In this document: positions 5,391 to 64,000 of the stretch, in pieces
Position numbering within the stretch: position 1 is the stretch's first letter
Layout: each line of letters begins with the position of its first letter
NCBI RefSeq assembly: GCF_027923765.1
Contig: NZ_AP026709.1
Location: 2,537,501-2,601,500, forward strand
DNA from: Pseudodesulfovibrio nedwellii
GTDB lineage: Bacteria > Desulfobacterota > Desulfovibrionia > Desulfovibrionales > Desulfovibrionaceae
DNA length: 64,000 nucleotides
Direction of reading: 5' to 3'
Notes under the pieces: model-generated
What the model saw: only the letters and a program-made list of their open reading frames with translations
What the model was told of the DNA's origin: nothing
The model's database searches: none
Translations under genes and position numbers: made by a program

Positions 5391-6661
5391 GATTCTCCCA
5401 GCGCAAGAAATTTTTCTGCTTTGGCCATTGTCTCCTGATACTCTCTCACGGGATCTGAGTCCACAACGATACCGCTTCCGGCATATGAGTCGAGGACGTG
5501 TGTTTTCATGTCGAATGTCGCGGTACGAATGGCAATGGACGAATCCATGTTTCGTTCGTCTTCAATTATCACGATTGATCCGCAGTATATCCCCCGGCTG
5601 TGCGGCTCCAGTCGCTCTATGATCTCCATGGAACTCTTTTTTGGGCATCCGGTAATGGAGCCACCCGGAAAGGCGTCAAGAAAGAGATCCAGACAATCCT
5701 TGTCGGTTCGGAGGGTGCCATGAACGTCGGCATACATTTGGAGCAGATTATCTACGGCAAACACTGATTTATGGTTTTTTACATGTACGGAGCCATAGTC
5801 GCAATTGGCTGAAATATCGTTGCGCACAAGATCCACGATCATGGACAGTTCCGCTGATTCCTTGGGAGAATCCGTCAATTGCCGATGTGCATCAGGCGTC
5901 AGAACATCGAAACGAAGTGTACCTTTGATGGGTTGGGATAAGACATGCCCATCCCGTACAGCCAGAAATCGTTCAGGTGAAGTTGATAATATTCGCTTCT
6001 GCCCGCTGATGAGCCATGCGTAAAACGGGGCCGGATGCTCACGGCACAGGGTCGTGAAAAGAGCGAGCGGATTGAGTTCGGGACAATGCCATGAAAGGCG
6101 GGTGGACAGATTTAATTGATAGGTATGCCCGGATCGGATGTACTCCAAGGTTCGGCGGACACCATCTTCATATCCATTTTTATCGAGAGATTTTTTCATC
6201 CTCGAAAGCGTTGGCCCGTAATCAATCTGTGTATCACTGTGTGCGGACATGTTGCCCAGCATTTCCGAAAGCGTGTCAATCAATGTTTGATGGCTGGAGG
6301 AAAACGTGAGTTTTTCGTTTTCAAAGGAAACAATAGCTTTGTACTTTTTGAGATGACCGAGCGGAAAATCATATGGCTTGGAAGAAGCGATGCCGCGCAG
6401 TTTCATGCCGTAGGTGTAACTTATGAAACCGAGGGTCGGACCAGGTGAATCAAAACAAAATCCCTTGAGCTGTTCTGGTGTGGTGGTTTCCGTGATAATT
6501 AACTCAGTGATAGGATATACGCCGACAACAGAGCGAGTCTGTGCGGGATACCCATCGGCCGATAAGATCATTTCAGCGTCAAAGTCGCGGGCCAGTAATC
6601 CTGCAAACCTGTCAAATTGTGCCTGATTAATTGAGGCCGAGAAAGTGCAGGGCAAATGCAA
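5387..6661 (-). CDS. pabB: Aminodeoxychorismate synthase component I
   Basis: Chorismate-using synthase that aminates chorismate to 4-amino-4-deoxychorismate with ammonia from PabA. 424 residues. The diagnostic PIKGT motif (near 235), whose lysine is the PabB nucleophile, separates it from anthranilate synthase TrpE, which has PIAGT. Other family motifs: IVDLVRND (near 265), GGSITGCPKK (near 325), and a C-terminal block with CGSIVI and IAIRTA. The start is TTG at 6661, inside the pabA 3' end (35-bp overlap), supported by GGAGG 8 nt upstream; no ATG occurs before residue 31. The N-terminal third diverges from E. coli PabB. Confidence 0.9.
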   Translation of the reverse strand: MHLPCTFSASINQAQFDRFAGLLARDFDAEMILSADGYPAQTRSVVGVYPITELIITETTTPEQLKGFCFDSPGPTLGFISYTYGMKLRGIASSKPYDFPLGHLKKYKAIVSFENEKLTFSSSHQTLIDTLSEMLGNMSAHSDTQIDYGPTLSRMKKSLDKNGYEDGVRRTLEYIRSGHTYQLNLSTRLSWHCPELNPLALFTTLCREHPAPFYAWLISGQKRILSTSPERFLAVRDGHVLSQPIKGTLRFDVLTPDAHRQLTDSPKESAELSMIVDLVRNDISANCDYGSVHVKNHKSVFAVDNLLQMYADVHGTLRTDKDCLDLFLDAFPGGSITGCPKKSSMEIIERLEPHSRGIYCGSIVIIEDERNMDSSIAIRTATFDMKTHVLDSYAGSGIVVDSDPVREYQETMAKAEKFLALGES

Positions 6662-7172
6662 TGTACCCGCCTCCGTCCGGTGTCATAAATGACTCGGGAT
6701 GAAATTGATAACCGAGAAGTCGCTTTTCAGCGTTACCAAGACACATGACGACATCGTCCCGGTTCACAGCCAAAATATCTAATTTGCTGCTAACCATTGT
6801 CACTTTGAGCGAATGATATCGAGCCACAACACGTTTTGTACCATCAAATTTAATGATATCGGTTTTGCCATGTACACATCCATTCAAGCGTCCAGTGGCC
6901 CCACCATGCAATTCATTGATGATCTGCATGCCAAGACAAATTCCCAGCACCGGCTTGTCGGCATTGAATATCCGTTTATATCCAGGATATTCGGCAGGCT
7001 CCCCCGGGCCCGGCGAAATAATGATGAGATCATACGCCGAATACTCGAGTGAATCCAACCGTGAATACGGCTTGATATCAACATTACATCCGGCCACCGC
7101 AGAAACCAGCAAATGCTCAAGATTCCGCGTAAAGCTATCATTGTTGTCTATTAAAAGGATATTCATACGCAC
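6627..7172 (-). CDS. pabA: Aminodeoxychorismate synthase glutaminase component
   Basis: Class I glutamine amidotransferase that releases ammonia for PabB. 181 residues. Motifs: IDNNDSFTRNLEHLL at the N terminus, the SPGPGEP oxyanion strand near 53-59, nucleophilic Cys in GICLGMQ near 77, and the His-Glu pair in FHPESFMTP near 158. The first two codons (ATG CGT) are followed by another ATG, so the start could be 2 codons later. PabA and TrpG cannot be told apart by sequence alone; pairing with a PIKGT-type PabB supports PabA, although some bacteria share one glutaminase for both pathways. Confidence 0.9.
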   Translation of the reverse strand: MRMNILLIDNNDSFTRNLEHLLVSAVAGCNVDIKPYSRLDSLEYSAYDLIIISPGPGEPAEYPGYKRIFNADKPVLGICLGMQIINELHGGATGRLNGCVHGKTDIIKFDGTKRVVARYHSLKVTMVSSKLDILAVNRDDVVMCLGNAEKRLLGYQFHPESFMTPDGGGYIAFALHFLGLN

Positions 7173-54309: not shown

Positions 54310-54383
54310 AAAAAACGGCTCATACTGAAAAAAGAGGTTGCCAATCGGCCCTCATTTCGGTAAATCCCATTTCTCGACAGCGT

Positions 54384-54459
54384 GCTCGGGTAGCTCAGTC
54401 GGTAGAGCAGGGGACTGAAAATCCCCGTGTCGGCAGTTCAATTCTGTCCCCGAGCACCA
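54384..54459 (+). tRNA. tRNA-Phe (anticodon GAA)
   Basis: 76 nt, CCA encoded. Acceptor GCTCGGG / CCCGAGC, D-arm GCTCAGTCGGTAGAGC, anticodon arm GGGGA-CTGAAAA-TCCCC with GAA, T-arm GGCAG-TTCAATT-CTGTC. Downstream is an AT-rich terminator-like hairpin (54470-54502), then the island. tRNA 3' ends are common integration sites. Confidence 0.97.
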
Positions 54460-54469
54460 CGCGATATCA

Positions 54470-54502
54470 AAGGCTTTCATCTTAATTGGTGAAGGCCTTT
54501 TT
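54470..54502 (+). terminator. Terminator after tRNA-Phe
   Basis: Imperfect stem AAAGGCTTTCATC / GGTGAAGGCCTTTTTT with T-run. Confidence 0.7.
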
Positions 54503-54547: not shown

Positions 54548-55159
54548 CTATCTTCTAAACCAGTTCCACGGCAACCAGCTTTTGAGCATTTCCTTGATTG
54601 CCTTTCGTTGGTCATGCCGAATGATACCTAACGCCAGTTCGGCAACTTCGGCAAGCTCCTTCCGTCCTTCTTCCTTGAGTCTCTGCTTTTCTTCCGCAGG
54701 CATTGCTTCTCGATAAATTCTTTTCTCTTCACTGCTTTTGAATGTAGACCAGTCATTGCCAGTGTCATTACTCAGCTCCAGCCACCCTCTATCAACAATT
54801 AATCTTGTATCGTCGTATTTATCGGGTTCGTAATATCGCCCGAAGAAACGCATAATCTCTTCGGAGTCATGAGACTGTTTCCACAACTCCAGCCCGGACA
54901 GTTTCGCTAGGGTTTTATCAGGCACACCATCAAGAGTCTTGTCCGAAATCATAACAAGGTATAGCCGTAAATCCTCATTGACGCGAAATCCAATTGAAGC
55001 ACATCCGCATCGCCTATAGTTCTCATCGCTAGGGGGAGTTCTATATACGTTTAGTGACGGCATTTCTTTGATCAACTTCTTTAAATCGTCTCGACGGTGA
55101 ATACTGTCATGGATATACTTACGAGTTTCTTTCTCTTGTTCTTCTTTAGTCCGAGGCAT
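54548..55159 (-). CDS. Island protein of unknown function
   Basis: 203 residues, hydrophilic, charged at both ends. Middle part looks globular (CGCASIGFRVNEDLRLYLVM near 51-70); a C-terminal charged helix with ALGIIRHDQRKAIKEML near 177. No family recognised, no signal peptide. First gene in the island, on the same strand and 15 bp after the resolvase. Confidence 0.65.
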   Translation of the reverse strand: MPRTKEEQEKETRKYIHDSIHRRDDLKKLIKEMPSLNVYRTPPSDENYRRCGCASIGFRVNEDLRLYLVMISDKTLDGVPDKTLAKLSGLELWKQSHDSEEIMRFFGRYYEPDKYDDTRLIVDRGWLELSNDTGNDWSTFKSSEEKRIYREAMPAEEKQRLKEEGRKELAEVAELALGIIRHDQRKAIKEMLKSWLPWNWFRR

Positions 55160-55174
55160 TGTTTCACCTTTACC

Positions 55175-55855
55175 TTAAGTTGCCCGATCTAGTCGTTCTG
55201 CAAGTCTCTTCACACTGGCGGCATACCATCGCCCACCCCGTGCGGTCTTAATCCTTTTGGCGTTCATTTCTTTTGCTATTCCCGCAAAGCTTGTTGTTCC
55301 ATCTTCCAGAATCTCTTTAAGAGTGCCGCGTAGTTTTTCAGCTCTGTCGTTAGCATTTGCCTTTATCGCAGCAACTCCAAGATCATTGCCGTACTTCCTC
55401 AGGTGCTTGGCCCCATTAGGGCAACCGAGCTTCACTCCTCTGGCCTTTGCCGCCTTGAGTGCCGCCTTGGTCCTCTCACTAATCATTTTGCGCTCATGCT
55501 GAGCCATCACAGCCATTATCCCAATAGTCAGCTGGTTTGCCTCAGGCATATCCGCACAAACAAACTCCACCTCGCTCTTCTGGAGTCCAAGCAGGAAGTG
55601 TGCATCACGCGAAAGACGATCCAATTTGGCAATAACCAATGTCGCTCCAGTCAGCTTGCACCGCTCCATGGCTTTAGCAAGTTCTGGACGGTCATTTTTT
55701 TTGCTTGACTCAATCTCAACGAATTCATCCAGCAATTCCCCGTAGCCACCGTTCAGGAAGCCTCCTACAGTTTCTCGCTGGGCTTCGATGCCAAGGCCAC
55801 TTTGCGCCTGCTTCTGGGTCGATACTCTGAGGTAAGATACGAATGTATTTCTCAT
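55175..55855 (-). CDS. Serine recombinase (resolvase/invertase family)
   Basis: 226 residues from ATG 55855 (a longer frame begins at 55900). The catalytic domain starts FVSYLRVSTQKQAQSG with the nucleophilic Ser near 12; further conserved residues are in LDRLSRDAHFLLGL near 80-93 and the E-helix QHERKMISERTKAALKAAKARG near 117-138; a small HTH (SFAGIAKEMNAKRIKTARGG) is at the end. Resolves or inverts DNA at nearby sites. An inverted repeat lies just upstream at 55878-55915, possibly its res/operator. Confidence 0.9.
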   Translation of the reverse strand: MRNTFVSYLRVSTQKQAQSGLGIEAQRETVGGFLNGGYGELLDEFVEIESSKKNDRPELAKAMERCKLTGATLVIAKLDRLSRDAHFLLGLQKSEVEFVCADMPEANQLTIGIMAVMAQHERKMISERTKAALKAAKARGVKLGCPNGAKHLRKYGNDLGVAAIKANANDRAEKLRGTLKEILEDGTTSFAGIAKEMNAKRIKTARGGRWYAASVKRLAERLDRAT

Positions 55856-55877
55856 GACAGCTGTCCTACGGGTACTT

Positions 55878-55915
55878 TTATCAAATTCACTTACGTCCAT
55901 TAGGGAATTTGATAA
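55878..55915. promoter_or_regulatory. Possible res site / operator of the resolvase
   Basis: TTATCAAATTC (55878-55888) and GAATTTGATAA (55905-55915), a perfect 11-bp inverted repeat with a 16-bp spacer, directly upstream of the resolvase. Confidence 0.55.
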
Positions 55916-56655: not shown

Positions 56656-57312
56656 TTATACACACAAAGCCAAACCTTGTTTCAATAACCCTACACGTAT
56701 ATCTTCTCGGAGAGCCATCCTATTGAGTCTTGGATAACAGCTATATGTATTATTCATACCATATCGCCAGTTCCCGATGACGTACAAAGCTTGTTGTCGT
56801 CCCTTCGTATTCAATTTGATCAGAACCCCAGCGTCTGTCAGCTTCTTGAAATACTTACTGGCTGCGCTTCGTTTAAATCCTGTATTTATCTCAATTGCTT
56901 TAAAATCTGCTCGGACGACAACATCGCCATATGTTCCATCATCGTATTTTTCACTTCTGTATGGATTGCCACCAGCATCCGAAATTGAAAAGTTTCCGTC
57001 ATGATCATTCCACCGAATAACGTGTCGTCGTAAGTTGTGATAAAATCGTTCAAAGCCTTCTTTCACCCTTATTTGTTTGTCGTTGAAAGGCCATGAACCT
57101 CTTGGCGGCTTTTCTGTTTGGTATCTGGCGATTTCTTGTTTTTGTACTTTCTCATATATTTTTTTAATTTTCCGATAGTGTTGGGCATCAAGGGGGGCCG
57201 GACTCCCATCTAAATTTGTGCCCCGCACTTCATAAATACAATCTTTGACTATGCTTGTGAGTTTACGTTCAAAGGCTTCAAATGTTTCGTCGACATTATC
57301 TATACGGGACAT
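56656..57312 (-). CDS. Winged-helix protein, possible replication or regulatory protein
   Basis: 218 residues from ATG 57312 (AAGGAG upstream). Helical N terminus, then a winged-helix-like C-terminal half: AIEINTGFKRSAASKYFKKL near 152 and TDAGVLIKLNTKGRQQALYVIG, which resembles the recognition helix and wing of regulators or replication initiators. The last codons lie in an ATACACACAAAG repeat. No firm family; a plasmid-type Rep is one option. Confidence 0.6.
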   Translation of the reverse strand: MSRIDNVDETFEAFERKLTSIVKDCIYEVRGTNLDGSPAPLDAQHYRKIKKIYEKVQKQEIARYQTEKPPRGSWPFNDKQIRVKEGFERFYHNLRRHVIRWNDHDGNFSISDAGGNPYRSEKYDDGTYGDVVVRADFKAIEINTGFKRSAASKYFKKLTDAGVLIKLNTKGRQQALYVIGNWRYGMNNTYSCYPRLNRMALREDIRVGLLKQGLALCV

Positions 57313-57480
57313 GTGGCATATTCTCCTTATAATATTAGCTGATAAAATTTCGTAAAATTTGCGTATCTGATGTATTTGCAAAAGGGGAATGTGTCAACTA
57401 TCTATCTAAAATATTTGTACTTTGCGTCGATTGATGGGGAATAAGCGCAACTAATACTGTCAGGATTACCCGACTGAATT

Positions 57481-57804
57481 TTACCGTTGCTGGGATTGAC
57501 ACATGTCATGCAGCCTGATCGCCGGAAGGACTTCGGAGGTGATCCACTTTTTGAAAGTCTTGGCTTCGGGTTTGCGGGAACGGAGAATCAGACTGTAAAG
57601 GCCGGATTCGTTGATAGTTGTAAGGTGACGTATCTGACCTTCATACTGTGAAGGACAGGTTGATTTCTCATCCGAGTCCAAGCCAGACAAAGTACGGGAT
57701 GGATTCACAATCCCCAAAGCATCACACACATCCTTGGCAACAAACCACGGATCGCCGTTGTCGTCGGTCAGGGTGCGGACGGGAGGATGATAGAGAGTAG
57801 ACAT
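57481..57804 (-). CDS. Bro-N domain protein (phage antirepressor-like)
   Basis: 107 residues. Bro-N pattern: VRTLTDDNGDPWFVAKDVCDALGI near 9-32, ending SRKPEAKTFKKWITSEVLPAIRL. A KilA/ANT C-terminal domain is missing, so it is either a Bro-N-only protein or truncated. Bro proteins come from phages and mobile elements and bind DNA; here it marks the mobile origin of the region. The gap from 57805 to 58110 has no supported gene. Confidence 0.8.
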   Translation of the reverse strand: MSTLYHPPVRTLTDDNGDPWFVAKDVCDALGIVNPSRTLSGLDSDEKSTCPSQYEGQIRHLTTINESGLYSLILRSRKPEAKTFKKWITSEVLPAIRLHDMCQSQQR

Positions 57805-58110
57805 TAGGCCTTGATATCTGTCACGTCGACATGGACAAACGTACCCACTGAATCCCAATTGTCCAAGCTATGTCCAAAGGCCAAGAGAATATACTCTATT
57901 GTCTTTTGTGATTTGCGCCGTTTAAAAATATGTGTGCTGTGGTGGGCCTGCTTGCTGTAATCCTTCCCTGTGTGAGGGGGTAAGTTGCCGTTAATATGGG
58001 TGTTTCTTCAAATGACAACTTGTGCCAAGTGTGTTAATCGAATTAAATTCTCAATAAGAAAATGGATCCTGTCTGGGGGGCATTTCATTCTCTATAGCTG
58101 GTGTGTGGTG

Positions 58111-58548
58111 ATGGATAGAATTAAGTCTGATATTTTTACCCCTGAGAAACGTAGCGAGGTAATGAGCAAGATCCGTGGCAAAAATACTCGCCCGGAACTG
58201 TTTGTTAGGTCTTTGCTTCATAGAATTGGTTACCGGTTCAGGTTGCATAGGAAAGACCTGCCGGGGAAGCCCGACTTGGTACTATCAAAGTATCGCACTG
58301 TTGTATTTGTCCATGGATGCTTTTGGCACCAGCATGATGGTTGCAAATCGTCAGGCTTCCCGAAAAGCAATCAGCCTTTCTGGAAAGAAAAGCTATTAAG
58401 GAATAAAGCTAGAGATAAAAGAAATATTGCAGCACTTGAAAGTCTTGGCTGGAATGTGATCGTTGTTTGGGAATGTGAGACGAAAGTTAAGAATAAAGAA
58501 AAGTTAGTAGAAAGACTGATAGAAGAGATTGAGAATAAAAATGTCTGA
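58111..58548 (+). CDS. vsr: Very-short-patch mismatch endonuclease Vsr
   Basis: 145 residues from ATG 58111. Repairs T-G mismatches left by deamination of 5-methylcytosine. Family motifs: RSEVMSKIRGKNTRPEL near 15-31, PGKPDLVLSKYRTVVFVHGC near 51-70 (active-site Asp), and CFWHQHDGC near 70. Overlaps the methyltransferase start by 8 bp; the gene order (vsr first) is the reverse of E. coli dcm-vsr. It protects the genome from the cost of the adjacent C5 methylation. Confidence 0.93.
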   Translation: MDRIKSDIFTPEKRSEVMSKIRGKNTRPELFVRSLLHRIGYRFRLHRKDLPGKPDLVLSKYRTVVFVHGCFWHQHDGCKSSGFPKSNQPFWKEKLLRNKARDKRNIAALESLGWNVIVVWECETKVKNKEKLVERLIEEIENKNV

Positions 58549-60001
58549 ATGGGTGAATAAGAAAATTACAAAGGCTAAAAAGCGCGGTTACTACAGGACT
58601 GTTGATCTTTTTGCTGGATGTGGTGGCATGAGTCTTGGTTTTGATCGTGCTGGCTTTAAGTCTGTCGCAGCTATTGAGCTAAACGATAAGGCTAGGGACT
58701 CACATGTGTTAAATTTTTCCCAGAAAGTGTCATGTGGGTATAGGTCCTTTTCGGACATCCGAACGACCCCGCCAGAGGTCGCCGTTGAACACCTTTGTGT
58801 CGGTGGGGATTCTGCAGAAACTGCCGTGGATGTTGTCGTTGGTGGGCCGCCTTGCCAAGCTTTTTCAAGACTTGGTCGTGCTGCTCTTTGGCGGTTGGCT
58901 GGTAAAGATTATGCCCATGCTTCTGATGATCGCGCAGCTTACTATTTAGACTATTTAAGGTATATAACAGCGCTTAAGCCCTTAGCGTTTGTGATGGAAA
59001 ATGTGCGAGAAATCGGTAAATTTGTGAAAAAGAATATTGCCGAGGAAATAGCTGTTACCGCTGAAGCATTGGGCTATGAGACTCGCTATGCTCTTCTCAA
59101 TGCCGCTTGGTACGGTGTACCACAGCTTCGCGAACGGATGTTTATAGTGGGGATTAGAAAGGAATTTGGTGTCTTTCCTGAATTTCCTTCTATTGAACGA
59201 AAATATAATCTTCCTGTGGGGTATTCAACAGCTAGGGCAGGAAATGGACACGCCCAAGTCCTTTCCCCATGTGATCATTATGTGGATCACTTCAAGAAGA
59301 AATCTCGATTACAACCTGCTGTGTCCGCCTCTGAGGCTTTTTATGACCTTCCCCCGATTACATGGCATCTTGATGGAAGGAACGGTAAAGGGAATAAAAG
59401 GGATACCAGTAAGTTCTTTGATTACTTGAAAAGGGACTCTACATTTTCAAAAAAAATGAAGGAATGGCCCGGATTTCGATCGCAGGAGCAGTTTGATGGG
59501 AATGTCATACGTTATACTCCGCGTGATTATGAAACATTTAAGCGCATGCCTCATGGGGGGATGTACCCAGAAGCTCTTGAGACCGCGAATGCAATTTTTA
59601 TTGAACGCATAGCTGAAGAAGAGAAAAAATTGGGTGTTAAAATCAAGGAGAGAAGTGAAAAATGGAATGAAGTATTTAAAGCCACGGTCCCTCCGTATAA
59701 GAACAACCGGTATCCCAACAAATTTAGGAAAATGTGGCCTGACCATCCCGCTAGAACGGTTCCTGCACACATAGGGAAGGATTCATATTCCCATATACAC
59801 TTTGACAATGAACAGGCGAGATGCATTTCGGTTAGAGAAGCGGCAAGGCTTCAGTCCTTTCCCGATGCTTTTCGTATTGCAGGAAGTATGAATGCTCAGT
59901 TGACTCAAATAGGCAATGCCGTTCCTCCTCTGCTGGCTTGGGCGGTAGCCAAGGCGCTTGACGATCGGCTGGATAAAGGGTTTATGAATATTTGTCGATG
60001 A
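58541..60001 (+). CDS. DNA (cytosine-5-)-methyltransferase
   Basis: 486 residues from ATG 58541. C5 methyltransferase motifs in order: I TVDLFAGCGGMSLGFDRAGF near 20, IV with the catalytic Cys in VVGGPPCQAFSRLG (C105), VI FVMENVREIG near 157, VIII QLRERMFIVGIR near 202, IX REAARLQSFPDAF near 446 and X QIGNAVPPLLAWAVA near 468. The long stretch between VIII and IX is the target-recognition domain; the site is unknown. Longer than Dcm-type enzymes by about 60-100 residues. Sits with vsr and the McrB-like and DUF2357 genes, probably as the modification half of that system. Confidence 0.95.
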   Translation: MSEWVNKKITKAKKRGYYRTVDLFAGCGGMSLGFDRAGFKSVAAIELNDKARDSHVLNFSQKVSCGYRSFSDIRTTPPEVAVEHLCVGGDSAETAVDVVVGGPPCQAFSRLGRAALWRLAGKDYAHASDDRAAYYLDYLRYITALKPLAFVMENVREIGKFVKKNIAEEIAVTAEALGYETRYALLNAAWYGVPQLRERMFIVGIRKEFGVFPEFPSIERKYNLPVGYSTARAGNGHAQVLSPCDHYVDHFKKKSRLQPAVSASEAFYDLPPITWHLDGRNGKGNKRDTSKFFDYLKRDSTFSKKMKEWPGFRSQEQFDGNVIRYTPRDYETFKRMPHGGMYPEALETANAIFIERIAEEEKKLGVKIKERSEKWNEVFKATVPPYKNNRYPNKFRKMWPDHPARTVPAHIGKDSYSHIHFDNEQARCISVREAARLQSFPDAFRIAGSMNAQLTQIGNAVPPLLAWAVAKALDDRLDKGFMNICR

Positions 60002-60031
60002 ATTTGTATTTAAATAGCTTGAGGCGTCGAG

Positions 60032-61786
60032 ATGTCAAAGATTGTGTTTGCAGCAAGAGAATTTGCTAAATCTAATTTAGGTTGGTTTATGAAAACCCGC
60101 CAAACAATAGGTGAGGCGTCTGGTAGAGAGCGGGCAATTAATATTAATCGCGATGTTTTTGATGTTTGGTTTCCCAACAAAGGAGAGGATACTTCTCCAG
60201 AAAAGATTAGAACCCGATATTTTGATGGTAATCAACTTATTCAAGGCCTGCATGAAATTGTTGATGATAAAAGAACGATTCGCAATCAGGGCGGGGGTAA
60301 GAATTGGCGTTTAGCCGGTGACGGAATTCAAGGTGATTGGTATGATGTCAGATTAGGTGATTTAATGCTTATGGCATTTGATACAGCTTCTTCAATCCTT
60401 GCTTGGGTTGTAATACGTCAAGGCGGAGATTCATCACGTAGCATATCTGCAAAAGAAGAGAGTGTTTATCAAAGGGTTCATGCAGAGTTGGGCGATGGAA
60501 ATCGGAACATGTGGATCATTCCACCGCTAAGAGCGGCTAGGATTAGCAGTATCATTTCAGATATTTTTCCAAAATCCGGAGAGTTACTCATGCTAGACAA
60601 AGCAATGCAAACTGAATGGGAAGCAGCTTTGGATGAAATGGGATTTGTTGTGGGTAATAACGTAGACTTACGCCTTCCGTTGTCCTTAAAAGCGAAGCGG
60701 TTTGTAATCCTTTCAGGGTTATCCGGCTCAGGGAAAACCCTTCTTGCAAGATCATTTACTAAGTGGGTCACTGAATCGTCAGAGCAATATGAGATTGTTG
60801 CTGTAGGTGCCAATTGGATATCAAATGAAAATATAGTTGGGTACCCGGATGCTTTGGATAGGGAACGGTACGAAAAGACAAAGGCTTTGGAATTAATTCT
60901 CAAAGCCGACAGAGATAGAAGCAAACCATATTTTTTGATACTGGACGAAATGAATTTGTCACATGTTGAGAGGTATTTTGCCGATTTCCTTTCAGCGATT
61001 GAATCCCCCAGTGAACCCTTGAGGTTTCATTATGACGCCAATGGGCGTGCAGGAGTTCCTTCAAACATCGCCTCTTTGCCGAGCAATCTTTTTATAATTG
61101 GCACTATCAACGTAGATGAAACTACATATTTATTTTCACCAAAGGTTCTTGATAGAGCCAATATAATTGAATTTCGAGCAACAGGAGAAGCCTTGTCTGG
61201 TTTTCTGTCCTCTCCTGTAAATGCAAAATCCGGTGTTATCGAATCCAAAGGGGCAGGCTTCGGGGTTCACTTTGTAGACTCTGCAAATGACGATTCGGCA
61301 GTGACGGTTGCGGATCCTCTTGTTGCTGCTATTGTGAGAGGAGAGCTTGTTGCCCTCTTTGATTTGCTCTCCAGATACAATTCAGAATTCGGATTTAGAA
61401 CCAGCTTGGAAATATTGCGATATGTTGAATTTTTTAGGAGGACAATGGATCCGATTGTTGCCGAAGATATTGGTACTTTTTGTCGAACTGCATTGGATAC
61501 GCAGATCATGCAGAAGATTCTTACTCGGCTCCATGGTTCGAGGAAGAAATTGGCACCAATACTAAATGAGTTGGAAGTGTTTTGTGTTAAGCATCATCGG
61601 TGGGCTTCAGTCCCTTCTTCCGGACAAGACCCTCGTGAGATTTTAATTAACATTGATGAATTGTCCCCTGACGAAAATATTTCTTCTGAAGAAGGCTTAG
61701 ATCCATTTTATTCTCTCAGCGCCGAAAAGATCAAACGAATGAAGAGCAAGCTTGAAGAAGGGTTTGCTAGTTATGCGGAGGCCTAA
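60032..61786 (+). CDS. McrB-like AAA+ NTPase of a restriction cassette
   Basis: 584 residues. N-terminal ~200 residues, AIN-N followed by WYDVRLGDLMLMAFDTASSI near 110, look like a DNA-recognition or sensor domain. AAA+ core: Walker A LSGLSGSGKTLLARSF near 226-241, Walker B YFLILDEMNLSHVERYFADF near 297-316, sensor FIIGTINVDETTYLFSPKVL near 351-370 as in McrB proteins, and a C-terminal helical lid. GAGG precedes the ATG. Powers a nuclease through NTP hydrolysis, here probably the next gene. Whether GTP or ATP is used cannot be read. Confidence 0.85.
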   Translation: MSKIVFAAREFAKSNLGWFMKTRQTIGEASGRERAININRDVFDVWFPNKGEDTSPEKIRTRYFDGNQLIQGLHEIVDDKRTIRNQGGGKNWRLAGDGIQGDWYDVRLGDLMLMAFDTASSILAWVVIRQGGDSSRSISAKEESVYQRVHAELGDGNRNMWIIPPLRAARISSIISDIFPKSGELLMLDKAMQTEWEAALDEMGFVVGNNVDLRLPLSLKAKRFVILSGLSGSGKTLLARSFTKWVTESSEQYEIVAVGANWISNENIVGYPDALDRERYEKTKALELILKADRDRSKPYFLILDEMNLSHVERYFADFLSAIESPSEPLRFHYDANGRAGVPSNIASLPSNLFIIGTINVDETTYLFSPKVLDRANIIEFRATGEALSGFLSSPVNAKSGVIESKGAGFGVHFVDSANDDSAVTVADPLVAAIVRGELVALFDLLSRYNSEFGFRTSLEILRYVEFFRRTMDPIVAEDIGTFCRTALDTQIMQKILTRLHGSRKKLAPILNELEVFCVKHHRWASVPSSGQDPREILINIDELSPDENISSEEGLDPFYSLSAEKIKRMKSKLEEGFASYAEA

Positions 61787-61788
61787 AG

Positions 61789-63702
61789 GTGTTTGTAAAA
61801 TCTGAATCATTAATGGAAGCGGTGTGCTTTTATGATGATTCTGGTGTGAAACTTTGCGAAATGGAACTTGCGGTAAAAGCCGGTTCAATCCCCCCTCCCA
61901 TTGTTCGGTTATCGAAAGATGAGGCTCGGGAATTTGGGGAGGAACAAATTCAGCTTTTAGAATCAACTCGCTATCACTACATCCTGAAAAAACCACTGGT
62001 TGAGCTTGAAGAGAAAAGTGGAATTGTTGAACGGTCGCCTTTTGCGTCCTCAACACAAGATTATGGTACAATTAATACGGGAAATCTTACAGGCCTGCTT
62101 ACGCTTCGATTGTTAAAAGAAGAAAAGCCTATTGGCCTTGCTCGTCTTGAGGTGCGGTCTAAAAAGGTCGGGTACAGGGAAGACTATCAACAGATGCTGC
62201 AGGATATTGCAGATCATTCGATTGAGTTATTACTTAGACTTCCAGCTACAACAGAAACGCGATTGACTTCAGACTTATGCCTTGATGCTCAGTCGATCCA
62301 ACAAAGATTTTTTTTCCTTCGAGCACTACTCTCATCTTCTGACTTCAATGACGCTATCAATCAAGTCACTTCAAGGCCTCACGTATCTCTGCGGATTTCA
62401 CAAGAGAGGCAACCTACGAGCAAGGGAATAATGGGGCGTGAAGCAATCCGTCAGTTGAGTTATGGATCTTCGAGGGTATCGCTGCCTGCCGGTCATCCCT
62501 TATCCCACAGACACCCTGCTTTAAAATCTTTACCAAGGAATGTGGTCAGAAGCACTGCGGAGGAGACTGTTGATACTCCTGAAAATCGTTTTGTGAAATT
62601 TGTTGTTGAGGACATGAATAATTTGTTGTCTTCAATTGAAAAAACAATAAAGGCGGCACACCCTCCACTTGCTTGGGGGCAGCGTTTTATAAAACGGGAA
62701 GTTTTGCCTCTACAAAATAAACTGGAAGAGATATTAGGAGCGCAGTTTTTTCGGAAGGTAAATGGATTTAGCGGTGTTGACTTTGGTAGCCCCGTTCTAC
62801 AGAAAAAACAGGGGTATCGGGAGATATTGCAGACTTGGCTTAAGGCGAATGCGGCGGCGAAATTGGCTTGGAGGGGCGGGGAAGATCTTCATCAGGGAGG
62901 ACAGAGGGATATCCCGACACTTTATGAGTATTGGGTGTTCTTTGTGATTTGGAGTGTTTTAGAAAGGTTGTGCTGTAGGGAATTGGCAACGGCCACATTG
63001 AATCTCTTTGAATCGTCTACAGATGGTTTTGGCCTTAAGCTTCGGTCTGGTAAATTGTTTAGCACCGGTGGTTTAAAAATCCTCCATGGTGGAGCGCGGC
63101 TTAGGCTTCAGTTTTCTTACAATAGAACATTTAATGTACCTTCATTGAGCAGGGTAACGAAGAGGATTGACTACGAATCGTCATATCCTTCCTCTGGATC
63201 TTGGACTCGAAGCATGCGTCCGGATTTTACGATTTCTGTTTGGGCTGAAGAGATAACCTCTGAAGAGGCTGAGCTGAATAACAGTATTTGCCACGTCCAT
63301 TTTGATACAAAGTACAGTGTTTCTGACATCATGACAGTTTTGGGTCATCCTAATGAAGAAGTTGATGTCATAAAAAAAGAAGAGCGATTTGGCTGCTATC
63401 GTCGGGGTGACCTACTTAAGATGCATAGCTATAAGGACGCCATTCGACGAACACACGGTGCGTATATCATCTATCCGGGGAATAGTAGCAAATATTCGCA
63501 AGGGCCGAAAGGATATCATGCATGGCTTGAGTTTCATGAAGTCTTGCCGGGGCTAGGTGCGTTTCAGATTTCTCCGGGAGTTAATAGCGATCAATCGGCC
63601 AAGGTTCTGCATGGTTTTCTTTTAGATATACTTGATCAGTTTGTTTTAAAAGAGAGTAAGTTAAGTCAAACGAATTGTCTTATTGGTGAAATCAATAAGT
63701 AG
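61789..63702 (+). CDS. DUF2357 protein with PD-(D/E)XK nuclease motif (McrC-like)
   Basis: 637 residues from GTG 61789, 2 bp after the previous stop, with GGAGG upstream. N-terminal half is DUF2357-like. The C-terminal nuclease has MRPDF (Asp479), then HFDTKYSV (Asp506-x-Lys508), and the YKDAIRRTHGAYIIYPG segment near 541 typical of the family. It should be the nuclease driven by the McrB-like protein, as in McrBC and LlaJI systems. The vsr-methyltransferase-McrB-DUF2357 order suggests one cassette. Confidence 0.85.
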   Translation: MFVKSESLMEAVCFYDDSGVKLCEMELAVKAGSIPPPIVRLSKDEAREFGEEQIQLLESTRYHYILKKPLVELEEKSGIVERSPFASSTQDYGTINTGNLTGLLTLRLLKEEKPIGLARLEVRSKKVGYREDYQQMLQDIADHSIELLLRLPATTETRLTSDLCLDAQSIQQRFFFLRALLSSSDFNDAINQVTSRPHVSLRISQERQPTSKGIMGREAIRQLSYGSSRVSLPAGHPLSHRHPALKSLPRNVVRSTAEETVDTPENRFVKFVVEDMNNLLSSIEKTIKAAHPPLAWGQRFIKREVLPLQNKLEEILGAQFFRKVNGFSGVDFGSPVLQKKQGYREILQTWLKANAAAKLAWRGGEDLHQGGQRDIPTLYEYWVFFVIWSVLERLCCRELATATLNLFESSTDGFGLKLRSGKLFSTGGLKILHGGARLRLQFSYNRTFNVPSLSRVTKRIDYESSYPSSGSWTRSMRPDFTISVWAEEITSEEAELNNSICHVHFDTKYSVSDIMTVLGHPNEEVDVIKKEERFGCYRRGDLLKMHSYKDAIRRTHGAYIIYPGNSSKYSQGPKGYHAWLEFHEVLPGLGAFQISPGVNSDQSAKVLHGFLLDILDQFVLKESKLSQTNCLIGEINK

Positions 63703-63772: not shown

Positions 63773-64000
63773 TTAATCCTTGTCGTAACGAAGAATATTA
63801 TCCGCTTCTTTCATACCTTTTTTTATCAACTCGTCGGCTAAATGAGCATACCGCTGGGTCATGGTCACAGTCTTGTGTCCAAGGATGTGTTGGAGTGTGT
63901 AAAGATCGACTTTGCCGGTGCTGATAAGCCTTGAAGCAAAAGTATGCCTTAGGTCGTGAGGGCGAATCTTTGGGCGCAACTTGGCAGCGGCCTTTATTCG
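63773..64000 (-). CDS. Tyrosine recombinase / phage integrase (5' part outside window)
   Basis: The last 75 residues of an integrase. Catalytic motifs: HDLRHTFASRLISTG with the HxxR pair, LQHILGHK, and the nucleophilic Tyr in TMTQRYAHLADELIKKG. Frame is open to the window edge. Reads leftward, its 3' end facing the restriction cassette. It may belong to the island begun at tRNA-Phe or to a further element to the right. Confidence 0.93.
   Translation of the reverse strand, partial: RIKAAAKLRPKIRPHDLRHTFASRLISTGKVDLYTLQHILGHKTVTMTQRYAHLADELIKKGMKEADNILRYDKD

Follow-up and report, generated by a model that had tools for sequence, protein, structure and literature searches.

Cassette layout and genomic island

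The window analysed here, a stretch of 64,000 nucleotides from Pseudodesulfovibrio nedwellii (contig NZ_AP026709.1), contains an intact cassette of four genes at 58111-63702. These encode a Vsr endonuclease, a C5 cytosine DNA methyltransferase (MTase), a McrB-like AAA+ protein and a DUF2357 protein, in this order on the plus strand (Table 1). All four are full length with intact motifs and are closely spaced, vsr and the MTase gene overlapping by 8 bp (58541-58548), the MTase and AAA+ genes lying 30 bp apart and the AAA+ and DUF2357 genes 2 bp apart. Both the gene order and the overlap had been proposed in an earlier sequence-only reading and were confirmed. That reading had set the beginning of the cassette at 57804, where none of its genes starts; vsr begins at the ATG at 58111, within an ORF that opens upstream at a TTG at 57985.

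It was noted that the cassette lies in a 10.7-kb island bounded by a 133-bp perfect direct repeat, in a genome of 3.76 Mb on one contig. The G+C content of the island is 0.439 compared to 0.481 in the flanks taken. The remaining island features are given in Table 1, where positions past the window end are extrapolated.

Table 1. Features of the cassette and of the island that contains it, in window coordinates.
Feature	Position	Strand	Remarks
Left flanking repeat, 133 bp	54338-54470	+	holds the whole tRNA-Phe gene (54384-54459)
Island ORF	54548-55159	-	no family match
Serine recombinase	55175-55900	-	inside the island
Island ORF	56656-57381	-	weak SoFic-like C-terminal match only
Bro-N gene	57481-57858	-	inside the island
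vsr, very-short-patch-repair endonuclease, 145 aa	58111-58548	+	Pfam Vsr 2.7e-33; NCBIfam TIGR00632 above its cut-off
C5 cytosine DNA MTase, 486 aa	58541-60001	+	Pfam DNA_methylase 7.3e-58
McrB-like AAA+ NTPase subunit, 584 aa	60032-61786	+	reader ~1-183, AAA ~200-584
N-terminal reader domain of the McrB-like protein, residues ~1-183	60032-60580	+	predicted B3-like
McrC-like subunit, DUF2357 and PD-(D/E)xK nuclease, 637 aa	61789-63702	+	GTG start; Pfam DUF2357 3.3e-43, PDDEXK_7 2.6e-20
Tyrosine integrase, 382-aa ORF, near the right repeat	63773 to 64921 (end extrapolated)	-	Pfam Phage_integrase 8.5e-15 on the 63773-64000 part
Right repeat copy	65043-65175 (extrapolated, past window end)		

Methyltransferase, Vsr, motor and nuclease

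The MTase motifs were found to be intact (GPPCQ at 102, ENV at 153, Q-x-RER at 195), and a large variable region spans residues ~216-405. The enzyme shares 65% identity with the L157 MTase and 39-44% with the 14 other family members that were compared. A single methyltransferase had been ascribed to the cassette, and this stood: the genome search returned two C5 MTases, the second of which lies ~1.85 Mb away on the same contig and resembles the cassette enzyme only at 5.5e-5. This second MTase (381 aa; 6002-7147 of locus L238, plus strand, ~748 kb on the contig) has an integrase-like ORF downstream, as judged by eye, and is perhaps prophage cargo. A viral scan with the cassette MTase alone returned zero relatives. 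Vsr, which had been described as an addition particular to this cassette, is indeed present and is not unique to it: among the best 80 AAA relatives, 8 of the 20 C5-linked loci carry one, as do two others (L073 and L088). The vsr-MTase pairs of the same family were also found with other partners in plasmid loci, and in one relative locus (L145) the MTase is a fragment amid insertion sequences.

The AAA+ protein carries G-x4-GK[ST] at 229 and DE at 305-306, and its GTPase signature is NxD (N360-V-D362), not NxxD, as seen in a motif check and in an alignment with 11 AAA relatives. Pfam returned general AAA matches only, all below the family cut-offs, solved McrB chains matched weakly (2e-4 to 2e-3), and a viral scan with the McrB-like protein gave zero relatives. 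One DUF2357 protein was found in the genome search. The D...DxK nuclease motif visible to the earlier reader is intact in it (PD at 478, D506-x-K508) and invariant in 11 rows, comprising the cassette and 10 relatives. The nuclease had no match to RE_LlaJI (PF09563) at E ≤ 0.1, and none was found in the genome at E ≤ 1, with a Bacillus subtilis control matching.

Predicted fold of the N-terminal reader domain

The N-terminal domain of the AAA+ protein is likely a B3-like, site-specific DNA-recognition domain, judging from structure prediction. AlphaFold2 with an 11-row alignment gave a model of the domain with pLDDT 80.0 and pTM 0.79; a prediction made without relatives (pLDDT 37.6) was set aside. 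The best PDB match of the model was the C-terminal recognition domain of BfiI (E 6.9e-4, prob 1.00), with moderate TM-scores of 0.48/0.55 and an rmsd of 6.1. Structure ranks 1-6 and 8 were BfiI-C or plant B3/ARF DNA-binding domains, with E < 0.001 at rank 1 alone. No LlaJI-named entry appeared among the 50 PDB structure matches listed, and the viral structure library gave no match to the model at E ≤ 0.001. Searched by sequence, the N-terminal domain alone had no match in the PDB, and the reader family profile retrieved three unrelated sugar-cleaving enzymes only (E 0.23-0.25). The candidates MrcB_N (which we take to be DUF3578), EVE, YTH and other Pfam-listed readers were rejected, as Pfam gave no match to such a reader in the McrB-like protein at E ≤ 0.1. 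It had been suggested that this domain reads the site, and this is likely given the B3-like prediction and the company that it keeps with one MTase family. A methylcytosine reader had been named as the contrary outcome; the domain is not the MrcB_N methyl reader.

Distribution of the reader and its MTase

With the N-terminal domain alone as the query, no relative was found in plasmids, phages, viral contigs or 394 other genomes of the phylum. The reader was recognised because the neighbours of related MTases were compared. Nine plasmid relatives of the MTase (41-45% identical) were opened for gene context. In D. actinosclerus, S. meliloti, Rhodovastum and Azospirillum the reader turned up in an adjacent protein whose annotation is hypothetical or DUF3883 (matches of 1.1e-4 in D. 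actinosclerus and 7.7e-7 for the Rhodovastum HATPase). The reader profile was found in four of the nine plasmid loci and in none of the other five (L137-L139, L142, L143). Four of the nine contain MTase, AAA, DUF2357 and Vsr, the AAA protein bearing another N-terminal type (L136-L139; Azospirillum, Deinococcus gobiensis and two Rhizobium), and Azospirillum and D. gobiensis share 53% full-length identity here. Residues F19, K90, N91, W92, R93 and G96 are invariant over nine reader rows.

A search with the reader profile returned 2 of 297 genomes of the same phylum, the cassette genome included, and 4 of 398 genomes of another group. Five new reader places were found, each with a Vsr and an MTase of the same family alongside, and L157 proved to be a second complete cassette of the same type. 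All loci whose gene context was seen link the reader to a C5 MTase, which belongs to the same family in 24 of 25; the exception, L222, lacks a Vsr and its C5 MTase is a distant one. It went undetected in 5 of 17 viral loci of this MTase family, which were taken from 79 (MTase covered nearly whole, at least 41% identity, E ≤ 1e-98), and in all four genomes of other MTase-linked AAA relatives. A viral scan with one NOV_C protein gave zero relatives, and a scan with the reader and NOV_C alignment gave 7 loci, all already in the query, and no further locus. Sharing of the same reader by the best 80 AAA relatives was rejected, since the reader profile matched none of their ORFs at E ≤ 10. Inheritance of the cassette with the host lineage was also rejected, since no reader was found in either set of same-family genomes examined (16 and 10). 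Together, the MTase, the reader and in most cases Vsr resemble a specificity module that can be exchanged, and at least three other restriction engines were seen to have it. The Mantel correlation is one that linkage by itself would produce, with or without a common specificity.

As a separate observation, the reader is fused to a large protein in L156 (2806-4755, minus strand), L170 (8481-10421, plus strand) and L222 (1659-3494, plus strand), with a C5 MTase nearby. The large protein has no Pfam match in L156 and L170 and two weak ones, under the cut-offs, in L222; the fusion adjoins an ATPase that is HerA-type by Pfam in L156, and in L222 a HerA-like ORF was recognised by eye. Loci of this type are possibly an undescribed HerA-based restriction-modification (R-M) system, whose large effector may resemble NurA.

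Relatives of the AAA+ motor

The relatives of the motor comprise the best 80 loci, not all relatives, from a scan of genome contigs with an AAA alignment. A DUF2357 ORF was present in 78 of them; the other two, L102 and L130, stop a short way past the AAA gene. With MTase labels assigned by phmmer using the cassette MTase, a linked C5 MTase was found in 20 loci and a likely amino-MTase in 2 more. The label of L060 comes solely from an NPPF motif in a truncated ORF, that of L057 from its relationship to an annotated amino-MTase. The other 58 were without an MTase, and 18 of these were left out for too little upstream DNA, so that 62 of the 80 were judgeable. MrcB_N was found in 32 of the 40 MTase-less compared to 2 of the 22 MTase-linked judgeable loci (Fisher p 7e-8), and in the two exceptions (L094, L096) the MTase is on the opposite strand or ~4.6 kb off. 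Separate Pfam tallies, which used a looser MTase split and kept contig-end loci in, concurred (MrcB_N in 36/56 MTase-less versus 1/22 MTase-linked; EVE in 2 of each group). One of the 22 MTase-linked N-terminal domains weakly matches RE_AlwI (E 0.00099), which is reminiscent of recruitment from a Type II recognition part.

A quickly made tree of the AAA domains (99 rows, several long branches) groups the cassette with L157 (SH-aLRT 98), and 8 of the 11 judgeable rows in the 15-row set around the two are MTase-linked. The MTase label switches at least 16 times on this tree, over 74 judgeable rows of the 99. Because of this switching and the MrcB_N split, it seems that one engine has passed many times between Type IV and R-M use, the reader changing along; the change of reader may be what causes the turn. 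Homologues mostly without a methyltransferase had been named beforehand as evidence against an R-M reading, and here the outcome was mixed: this describes the broad family, by the counts of C5 and amino-MTases above, but not the surroundings of the cassette on the tree, and the MTase-less members mostly carry MrcB_N.

Proposed mechanism and alternatives

We consider that the cassette is probably a mobile McrBC-like R-M system, carried on a tRNA-Phe island, that cuts unmethylated DNA. The C5 MTase, from its family and motifs, would mark the host genome by methylating a cytosine in a specific site. Vsr, as its family suggests, would nick the T:G mismatches left by 5mC deamination, so that the marked site is kept. 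The B3-like domain, given its predicted fold and MTase linkage, may bind the site of the MTase when it is unmethylated. By analogy with McrBC, LlaJI and PcaRCI, the AAA ring would translocate DNA with NTP under stimulation by the DUF2357 subunit, whose PD-(D/E)xK domain would cut. A McrBC engine would thereby have been redirected from methylated to unmethylated DNA, its reader exchanged and an MTase added, and with these steps the system would work like LlaJI and PcaRCI. We infer that the MTase directly upstream of the AAA gene is cognate. NxD GTPases form a large branch in which many members are linked to DNA methyltransferases, and none had been characterised as of PMC11090510, where the MTase-linked ones are deferred to a later publication; GTP use and translocation are therefore assumed here.

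The best 80 AAA-DUF2357 relatives are mostly MTase-less, and other partners are known for this family's vsr-MTase pairs, as would be expected if the AAA-DUF2357 pair were a Type IV system cutting modified foreign DNA and a solitary Dcm/Vsr set lay upstream by chance. We regard this as unlikely, since the reader is not MrcB_N and a C5 MTase adjoins it wherever its context was seen, the same MTase family recurring in nearly all reader loci even where the reader is fused to other engines. The predicted B3-like fold is, moreover, known from site-specific restriction enzymes (PMC4267653), and a nuclease directed at 5mC would put the host at risk with a C5 MTase beside it.

Less probable still is a CoCoNuT-like or abortive role, in which the McrB-type NxD motor would target RNA or bring about dormancy, with the MTase as a regulator. 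The NxD signature is that of the branch containing CoCoNuTs (PMC11090510), but many NxD GTPases in that account are MTase-associated, the nuclease motif of the cassette is intact, and Pfam scans of nine proteins from the cassette and island returned no HEPN, helicase or Hsp70 family. We give equally little weight to the cassette being solitary or decayed cargo, an inactive system among the genes that the island carries: the MTase fragment of L145 amid insertion sequences speaks for such decay, and the full length, intact motifs and tight spacing of all four genes here speak against it.

The favoured reading, an R-M system directed at unmethylated DNA, suggests a rule in which one McrBC-like engine serves opposite purposes and the reader decides between methylated and unmethylated DNA. 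The presence of an MTase in a genome would hint at which purpose the engine serves. Where homologous readers and MTases occur on different engines, a common site would be expected, which would make specificity and cutting separable for study, and the cassette would provide an NxD-type McrB motor whose substrate can be predicted.

Comparison with known systems

E. coli McrBC and its MrcB_N-type NxD relatives have the AAA motor and DUF2357/PD-(D/E)xK partner in common with the cassette, but carry the methyl reader MrcB_N and no MTase, in contrast to its B3-like reader and MTase. Neither of the features that mark McrBC as Type IV, a methyl-reader domain and the lack of a cognate MTase, was found in the cassette. 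CoCoNuTs, in which long coiled coils are fused to the GTPase, share the NxD signature in the McrB GTPase and differ in that the McrC nuclease motifs, PD and D-x-K, are present here and not lost. In the AAA protein of the cassette the N-terminus is taken up by the reader domain. In PADLOC, the AAA protein matches PDC-M26A, a candidate defence component, at 9.5e-44, and the match of the DUF2357 protein to PDC-M26B reaches only 0.0033. CglI and NgoAVII resemble the cassette in having a C5 MTase, a B3 reader and an NTP-driven ATPase subunit (PMC4267653).

LlaJI, known from Lactococcus and Helicobacter, divides its labour between subunits (PMC1459862) and resembles the cassette in a McrB-like subunit with a unique N-terminal reader, a PD-(D/E)xK partner and C5 methylation (PMC1459862, PMC7680126). 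The Helicobacter form has a B3 reader, whereas the cassette reader is B3-like by predicted fold only, and LlaJI has two MTases for an asymmetric site compared to one here (PMC1459862, PMC7680126). The term Vsr finds no match in PMC1459862, and RE_LlaJI, the Pfam family that bears the name of LlaJI, has no match in the cassette. The earlier description of the cassette as LlaJI-like R-M is supported as a mechanism and not as close kinship, the nuclease falling outside RE_LlaJI.

LlaJI had also been presented as the known exception among McrBC-like systems; PcaRCI of Pectobacterium carotovorum likewise restricts unmethylated DNA with McrBC-like subunits (PMC8989522). A one-MTase system of this layout is thus already published. 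PcaRCI restricts unmethylated plasmids and phages, is thought to be mobile and has the site 5'-CCNGG-3' (PMC8989522). Compared by gene content alone, it shares with the cassette one C5 (Dcm-like) MTase, a GTPase-type AAA+ protein and a DUF2357 PD-(D/E)xK protein; Vsr is not mentioned in the main text of PMC8989522, whereas the cassette has vsr.
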